A stretch of DNA of 35,775 nucleotides from assembly GCA_029937535.1 (NCBI GenBank), contig JAPYPT010000014.1, positions 1 through 35,775 of the forward strand, given 5' to 3'. Shown in pieces: positions 23,340-26,872 of the stretch; positions within the stretch are counted from its first letter, which is position 1, and each line of letters starts with the position of its first letter. The DNA is from Alphaproteobacteria bacterium. GTDB lineage: Bacteria > Pseudomonadota > Alphaproteobacteria > GCA-2731375. Both the position numbers and the translations under genes were made by a program. Below the pieces are notes generated by a model. It worked only from the letters and a program-made list of their open reading frames with translations, was not told where the DNA came from and made no database searches.

Positions 23340-23412
23340 GTCCGCTAGTCTCTCCGGTTAACGGTCTATTAAATCTATCCGAGATAAAATAAAATTTGAT
23401 AGTAGGAGGAGT

Positions 23413-23437
23413 CCATTTGGAACGTCTCTCCAAATGG
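23413..23437 (+). repeat. Perfect 8-bp hairpin upstream of the riboswitch
   Basis: CCATTTGG (23413-23420) pairs with CCAAATGG (23430-23437) around a nine-base loop. It lies directly 5' of the c-di-GMP aptamer in the same presumed leader transcript. It has no following T-run, so it is not an intrinsic terminator; it may stabilise or insulate the aptamer. Confidence 0.5.
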
Positions 23438-23439
23438 TC

Positions 23440-23523
23440 AGTTCGATAAAGGCATACCGTCGGCGACGGCGGGACGCAAAGCCACCGGTCTGGATGAACC
23501 AGAAGGCGGGGCCACCGAAGGGA
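23440..23523 (+). promoter_or_regulatory. Cyclic-di-GMP-I (GEMM-I) riboswitch
   Basis: The leader matches the GEMM-I aptamer: AAGGCATACC, then a six-pair helix CCGUCG/CGGCGG capped by a GCGA (GNRA) tetraloop, the invariant GACGCAAAGCC (23472-23482 region), a second arm built on CUGG/CCAG, and the closing GCGGGGCCACCGAAGG. Bases aligned with the ligand-contacting region of the V. cholerae Vc2 aptamer are kept; the G before GCA argues for c-di-GMP rather than cGAMP. The 3' strand of P1 (CGAA, pairing with UUCG at 23442-23445) runs into GAAGGGA, the Shine-Dalgarno of the CheY-like gene eight bases from its ATG. Translational control is therefore likely. Confidence 0.88.
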
Positions 23524-23531
23524 ATGATTAG

Positions 23532-23942
23532 ATGTCCACAAATATGTTGGTAGCGCTCCGTGCGCTGATTGTTGATGATCAACGAACAATGCGTTCGATT
23601 GTGCGCACTTTGTTGTCCCAAGTCGGCATAACCGACGTCATGGAAGCGTCCGATGGTGCCGAAGCCATGGAACTGATCGAGACACCAGGCGAAATAGCGC
23701 CGGATTTCGTGATCTGCGATTTACACATGAAGGATGGCGATGGGATGGCGTTCTGCAACAAGTTGCGCCGCCACAAGAATAGCGACCTATCACAGATTCC
23801 AGTGCTAATTCTGACTGGTGATAGCGATAGACTCTTACATGAAGTCGCAATGCAGGTCGGTGCCGCGAATGTTCTGACCAAGCCGATTTCGGCGCCCGAC
23901 CTCGCCCAGGAGATCAGCCGCGCCGTGGGATTTGCAAATTAG
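23532..23942 (+). CDS. Stand-alone CheY-like response regulator
   Basis: 136-aa receiver domain with nothing attached. Acidic pair D15-D16 (LIVDDQ), phospho-acceptor D63 (FVICDLHMKDGDG), switch Thr T95 (LILTGDSD) and K117 (VLTKPIS) are all present, so it should be phosphorylated by a histidine kinase not encoded here. It begins nine bases after a c-di-GMP riboswitch, so its level should follow the c-di-GMP pool. Single-domain regulators of this kind act in chemotaxis, motility or phosphorelays. Which one is not visible; no che genes are in the window. Confidence 0.93.
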   Translation: MSTNMLVALRALIVDDQRTMRSIVRTLLSQVGITDVMEASDGAEAMELIETPGEIAPDFVICDLHMKDGDGMAFCNKLRRHKNSDLSQIPVLILTGDSDRLLHEVAMQVGAANVLTKPISAPDLAQEISRAVGFAN

Positions 23943-26533: not shown

Positions 26534-26872
26534 ATGCGGGCGCTGCTGATCGAAGACGACACCGCGATGGCCAGAACCGTGGATTTGATGTTGCGCGGCG
26601 ACGGGTTCGAGGTCAGCGAGACGGATTCGGGCGAGGAGGGTCTCGACCTTGGTACGTTCTATGTCTTCGACATCATCATTCTTGACCTGAACCTGCCCGA
26701 CATGCACGGCTATGACGTCCTGAAAAAGCTGAGTGCGGCCACGATCGACACGCCGATCCTGATCCTCTCCGCCCGGTATCAGTCTTCCCAAAATGGGACG
26801 GGGCACTGTCGCGAAAGAATACACTTCTCAGGAAATTCACGGAAAAAATCCCCTAACTCATTGAAAACATGA
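26534..26872 (+). pseudogene. Truncated CtrA-like response regulator
   Basis: The first 80 residues match the receiver of the cell-cycle regulator CtrA closely: [45 protein letters not shown] with D51 as phospho-acceptor at the same number as CtrA, and TPILILSA. From residue 81 (base 26774) the frame runs into unrelated sequence ([10 protein letters not shown] onward) and stops at 112. The last receiver helices, the conserved Lys and the whole DNA-binding domain are missing. The Shine-Dalgarno (GGAG, seven bases from ATG) is intact. I read it as a gene broken by a rearrangement. A short, still expressed receiver is the alternative. No continuation of ctrA was found in the other frames downstream. 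Confidence 0.8.

Follow-up and report, generated by a model that had tools for sequence, protein, structure and literature searches.

A c-di-GMP-I riboswitch aptamer abutting the Shine-Dalgarno sequence of a lone CheY-like receiver gene: a possible minimal translational switch behind CtrA-like boxes in Alphaproteobacteria

How might an alphaproteobacterium place a single phosphorelay protein under the control of c-di-GMP by means of RNA? The question is raised by a locus on contig JAPYPT010000014.1 (assembly GCA_029937535.1, GTDB order GCA-2731375), of which we analysed positions 1 to 35,775, hereafter the window. The gene of interest (23532–23942, + strand; ATG at 23532, TAG at 23940–23942) encodes a response regulator of 136 amino acids. 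PF00072 (3e-25) is the only domain matched in the protein, and among proteins of known structure it is closest to CheY proteins; the lone CheY-like receiver of the preliminary description is thus borne out. The acid pair D15/D16, the phospho-acceptor D63, T95 and K117 are all present, and they are invariant in eight orthologues. The gene follows ccmF-dsbE-ccmH-ccmI and precedes a convergent enoyl-CoA hydratase gene; we take these neighbours to be such by recognition, with ccmI also identified by Pfam. It lies outside any che cluster, and the CheW-domain genes of this genome are on another contig. The presence of those genes, together with 11 GGDEF domains, makes it likely that both a chemotaxis system and the ligand are available to the organism.

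When the whole window was compared with 4227 Rfam families, the only match above cut-off was the c-di-GMP-I (GEMM-I) riboswitch aptamer (RF01051), at 23441–23519 on the + strand. The model is matched end to end with 57 bits against a gathering score of 35 (E = 9.4e-9), and the covariance-model scan, set beforehand as the test by which the identification could fail, was therefore passed. The core motifs GACGCAAAGCC and GGGGCCACCGAAGG are both present, as is the six-pair, GNRA-capped helix that had also been described: P1b, at 23457–23472, comprises the pairs CCGUCG/CGGCGG, one of them G-U, closed by the loop GCGA. The ligand-contact residues read from the sequence are canonical, namely G at 23451, A at 23478 and C at 23515, which we take to be G20, A47 and C92 of Vc2 after placement via the conserved core. 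The G at position 20 would favour c-di-GMP over c-AMP-GMP. A chance match, or an unrelated structured RNA, has nothing in its favour, and an E-value of 9e-9 together with the conserved placement described below leads us to count it as already refuted.

The aptamer is of a known kind, and it resembles the characterised RF01051 switches Vc2 (Vibrio cholerae) and Cd1 (Clostridioides difficile) in its core, its GNRA-capped P1b hairpin and its ligand residues, as well as in having motility-type targets, flagellar genes included. It differs in P3: the receiver leaders of the genus have a short one, in which no receptor of the CUAA...UAUGG type was seen by eye. Could the RNA be a relic, or a sensor of another ligand such as c-AMP-GMP or that of the GGC-type aptamers? 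The bit score is lower than that of most aptamers of the order, CATACC stands in place of CAAACC and AAGGC in place of the conserved AUAGC, and on a short stretch the c-di-GMP-I-GGC model (RF03167) slightly outscores RF01051. Against these points, G20, A47 and C92 are all intact, and orthologous aptamers are kept in eight genomes whereas their flanks diverge. Further, membership in RF03167 was considered and rejected: the 57.3 bits reached on the short stretch fall below the cut-off of 59, and the consensus of that family has G at position 47, where the window and its orthologues have A. Several orthologous receiver leaders do score above the RF03167 cut-off, and the outer P1 pair of that model reaches a base at the Shine-Dalgarno (SD) position. 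We consider a relic or a sensor of another ligand very unlikely.

The manner in which the aptamer meets the gene is the central feature of the locus. P1 consists of UUCG at 23442–23445 paired with CGAA at 23516–23519, the latter strand assigned from sequence and fold, and the SD sequence AAGGGA occupies 23518–23523 (all on the + strand). The preliminary description had the 3' strand of P1 running into the ribosome-binding site; it does so, with the nuance that only two bases (AA) are common to both and the remainder of the SD abuts P1. Across the order, the inner two P1 pairs can form in 50 of 50 leaders and are C-G and G-C in 46 of them. In two flagellin leaders the C-G pair is replaced by A-U, both sides having changed; these leaders are close relatives, so the replacement may be a single event. 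In flagellin and Sel1 leaders P1 is often longer (GCG..CC.CG paired with CG..GG..CGC) and then flanks the SD on both sides. A test in which 5' flanks were swapped gave a weak result for this extension over all classes, with 24 of 300 swaps equally good; the excess was suggestive for Sel1 leaders only, and the receiver class taken alone yielded no extended pairing. Likewise, no single clean helix common to all leader classes emerged when covariation of the 5' with the 3' flanks was examined position by position.

Is the aptamer bound to this receiver, or merely beside it? Eight of 11 congeneric genomes, which derive from metagenomes of uncultured, mostly marine Alphaproteobacteria, encode the receiver, and in all eight the aptamer, SD and start codon stand in the same layout directly before it. 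In the seven named congeneric loci examined, ccmH-ccmI lies upstream. A receiver of 69% identity in another assembly (L067) is not beside ccmI and yet has the aptamer at its gene start; receivers of 48–59% identity have no aptamer before them. Since the arrangement is kept in 8 of 8 congeners with the receiver and in L067 away from ccmI, the switch belongs with this receiver and is no chance neighbour, and the proposed coupling of the aptamer to a receiver gene through an embedded SD is supported.

The receiver is one of several targets. At a threshold of E ≤ 0.001, each of the 15 genomes of the order that were examined carries at least one such aptamer (52 in total, four of them in the genome of the window), and the genes behind them encode flagellin, Sel1-repeat proteins, this receiver, and two families of small proteins of 76 and 56 amino acids that have no Pfam match. 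Across a class-wide sample, 33 of 385 alphaproteobacterial genomes have the aptamer; beyond the order it precedes, among others, genes for ParA/MipZ-like ATPases and for LapG-like proteases, and PilZ-like proteins also occur. By one strict rule applied throughout (the first good start codon), 44 of 50 leaders of the order, and 11 of 21 in the rest of the class, have their start 10–16 nt past the aptamer. Among other classes of Pseudomonadota, only 1 of 28 aptamers has a start codon within 20 nt, apparently that of a spurious ORF; for the remainder the gene is 42–391 nt away, or none was found within 600 nt. The SD-abutting layout is thus the rule in the order and common in the class, but not in the other classes examined. 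With a start codon so close there is no room for an expression platform downstream, and no terminator-like site was found between the aptamer and the receiver gene.

Several observations on these other leaders deserve mention. ParA/MipZ-like ATPase genes are a recurrent target elsewhere in the Alphaproteobacteria (leaders L140, L142, L144, L145, L147, L148, L149, L151, L154 and L016). LapG-like genes for transglutaminase-type cysteine proteases have SD-abutting aptamers in L014, L031, L156 and L159, a possible link to the control of adhesins by c-di-GMP. At L036, L043, L034 and L044, flagellin and Sel1-repeat genes about 1–3 kb apart each have an aptamer of their own. The ligand-contact residues also vary. 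The Sel1 leader L046 (G002:C291) has A at the G20 position (AUAGCAAACC), a substitution that is known to move the preference of class I switches towards c-AMP-GMP, and many flagellin leaders (L051, L053, L054, L055, L049 and L035 among them) have U for C at position 92, possibly with an effect on affinity or on the choice of ligand.

A second recurrent element lies farther upstream. In Alphaproteobacteria, flagellar and chemotaxis genes under CtrA control have a TTAA-N7-TTAA box upstream, and an exact match to it (TTAACGGTCTATTAA, 23358–23372, + strand) is found 83 nt upstream of the aptamer in the window; here, a box of the type known from motility genes is combined with a c-di-GMP riboswitch leader. 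The boxes are aligned among the receiver leaders. With at most one mismatch allowed, and within –100 to –45 of the aptamer, 32 of the 52 leaders of the order have such a box, against means of 1.6 in shuffled and 2.9 in GC-matched control windows. Outside the order, the count is 11 of 26 leaders in the class (1.3 expected) and 4 of 28 in other classes (2.1 expected). A search for a sigma-70 promoter found none, and a –10 element 15–19 nt past the box was not enriched. A CtrA-type regulator probably binds the boxes. Full-length CtrA was detected in six genomes (G004, G009, G010, G011, G012 and G014) and was not found in the genome of the window (G000) or its congeners G001, G002, G003 and G008; close relatives do have the protein, and that none was detected in these five assemblies reflects perhaps gaps, or else loss. 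Positions 26534–26872 of the window encode the receiver half of a CtrA-like protein; over 79 residues it is about 76% identical to the CtrA of congeners, and its sequence departs after TPILILSA and ends early. Two congeners have 160-residue CtrA-like proteins (L130 and L134) with a decayed DNA-binding part.

Just before the aptamer, the leader can form a hairpin (CCATTTGGA / TCCAAATGG, 23413–23437, + strand) of 9 bp with a 7-nt loop and a folding z of –2.6. Many leaders have a hairpin between box and aptamer; across all 52, the stretch folds more stably than its shuffles (mean z of –1.04, against 0.08 for control stretches; Wilcoxon p = 3e-6), and its sequence is not conserved. Among leaders of the 76-aa genes (L002, L040, L041, L033, L047 and others) most have a hairpin directly upstream of the aptamer that captures the 5' strand of P1, and it is possible that in these predicted folds it acts as a competitor 5' of the aptamer. 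An upstream anti-P1 hairpin was also considered as a general expression platform and set aside: its signal stands out in the leaders of the 76-aa and the 56-aa genes and is not raised overall (0.49 versus 0.42).

What, then, would the switch do? On balance we lean towards a CtrA-type promoter followed by a translational OFF switch: c-di-GMP would make P1 more stable and mask the ribosome-binding site. A CtrA-type response regulator at the TTAA-N7-TTAA box would promote transcription of an mRNA whose leader presents the 5' hairpin, the aptamer and then, with no separate platform, the SD and start codon. Binding of c-di-GMP at G20, A47 and C92 would lock P1 (UUCG/CGAA); as the locked helix shares two bases with the SD, the ribosome could not dock and no receiver would be made. 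When c-di-GMP is low, P1 would open and the receiver would be produced, along with flagellin and the products of other genes with the same leader, and this joint expression would favour the motile state, in which the receiver presumably has a role. The aptamer, its geometry, its conservation, the shared targets and the box enrichment are computed features of these genomes; the ligand response, its OFF direction, the binding of CtrA and the part of the receiver in motility are what we infer. Nearest-neighbour folding does not separate ON from OFF: the SD is unpaired at 0.45 with P1 formed versus 0.57 with P1 absent in the window, and at 0.59 versus 0.51 in the receiver class, so that forming or forbidding P1 brings no consistent change in SD accessibility. 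The OFF direction thus draws on geometry and target biology, and it fits the motile-state targets (flagellin and the CheY-like receiver) as well as the LapG-like proteases of relatives.

The opposite direction must be weighed against this. In a translational ON switch, the SD of the unliganded RNA would be trapped in an alternative fold, or the 5' strand of P1 would be held by the upstream hairpin, and binding would free the SD. The 76-aa leaders could suit such a switch: in predicted folds their SD is 11% unpaired when the RNA folds freely and about 40% unpaired when the aptamer core is enforced, and the upstream hairpin takes the P1 5' strand in most leaders of the 76-aa and 56-aa classes. 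Precedent exists as well, as the two class I switches of V. cholerae respond in opposite directions (PMC6366702). No such folding trend is seen, however, in the receiver, flagellin or Sel1 classes; with the 3' strand of P1 in contact with the SD, ligand binding should impede the ribosome; and the targets are motile-state genes, which are usually lowered by c-di-GMP. We hold an ON switch to be unlikely, while allowing it a real chance. Control might instead act mainly on mRNA stability or by premature termination, with the 5' hairpin protecting the transcript and the aptamer modulating its decay. That many leaders have a hairpin of non-conserved sequence before the aptamer would agree with this reading, but there is neither a terminator-like site nor room for one between aptamer and gene, and the constant spacing of aptamer, SD and AUG points to translation. 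In our estimate this explanation has very little chance of being correct, and translational repression by c-di-GMP is the reading that we favour.

The proposed device departs from what is known of related switches. The class I switches of C. difficile work by termination (PMC6366702), and the examples in other classes of Pseudomonadota have their gene 42–391 nt downstream, whereas the SD of the receiver gene directly adjoins P1 and there is no room for a platform. The preQ1-I type III riboswitch of E. coli (PMC10622847) and the SAM/SAH riboswitch (PMC10516623) also dispense with a separate platform, the ligand-bound fold involving the SD directly; those are other aptamers with other ligands, and in the present case P1 and the SD overlap at the edge of the helix only. 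In the literature searched, the coverage of which is incomplete, we found nothing relevant on c-di-GMP riboswitches, whether in connection with CtrA or from Alphaproteobacteria, and no SD-P1 fusion without a platform, coupling to a CtrA-like box or placement before a lone receiver.

We propose, with confidence that is evenly divided, that the Alphaproteobacteria possess a distinct, minimal and direct translational c-di-GMP-I switch whose SD is fused to P1, and that this switch sits behind CtrA-responsive promoters and integrates CtrA, a regulator of cell cycle and motility, with c-di-GMP on the same transcripts, among them those of flagellin and this CheY-like receiver. The prevailing view has c-di-GMP act in Alphaproteobacteria mainly via proteins, those that control CtrA among them. 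If the proposal is true, a class-wide set of SD-fused RNA switches behind CtrA-like boxes would give c-di-GMP a second, direct and post-transcriptional grip on flagellin and signalling genes. Further, a very small natural c-di-GMP switch that lacks an expression platform would provide a test case for how the stability of P1 alone gates the ribosome.
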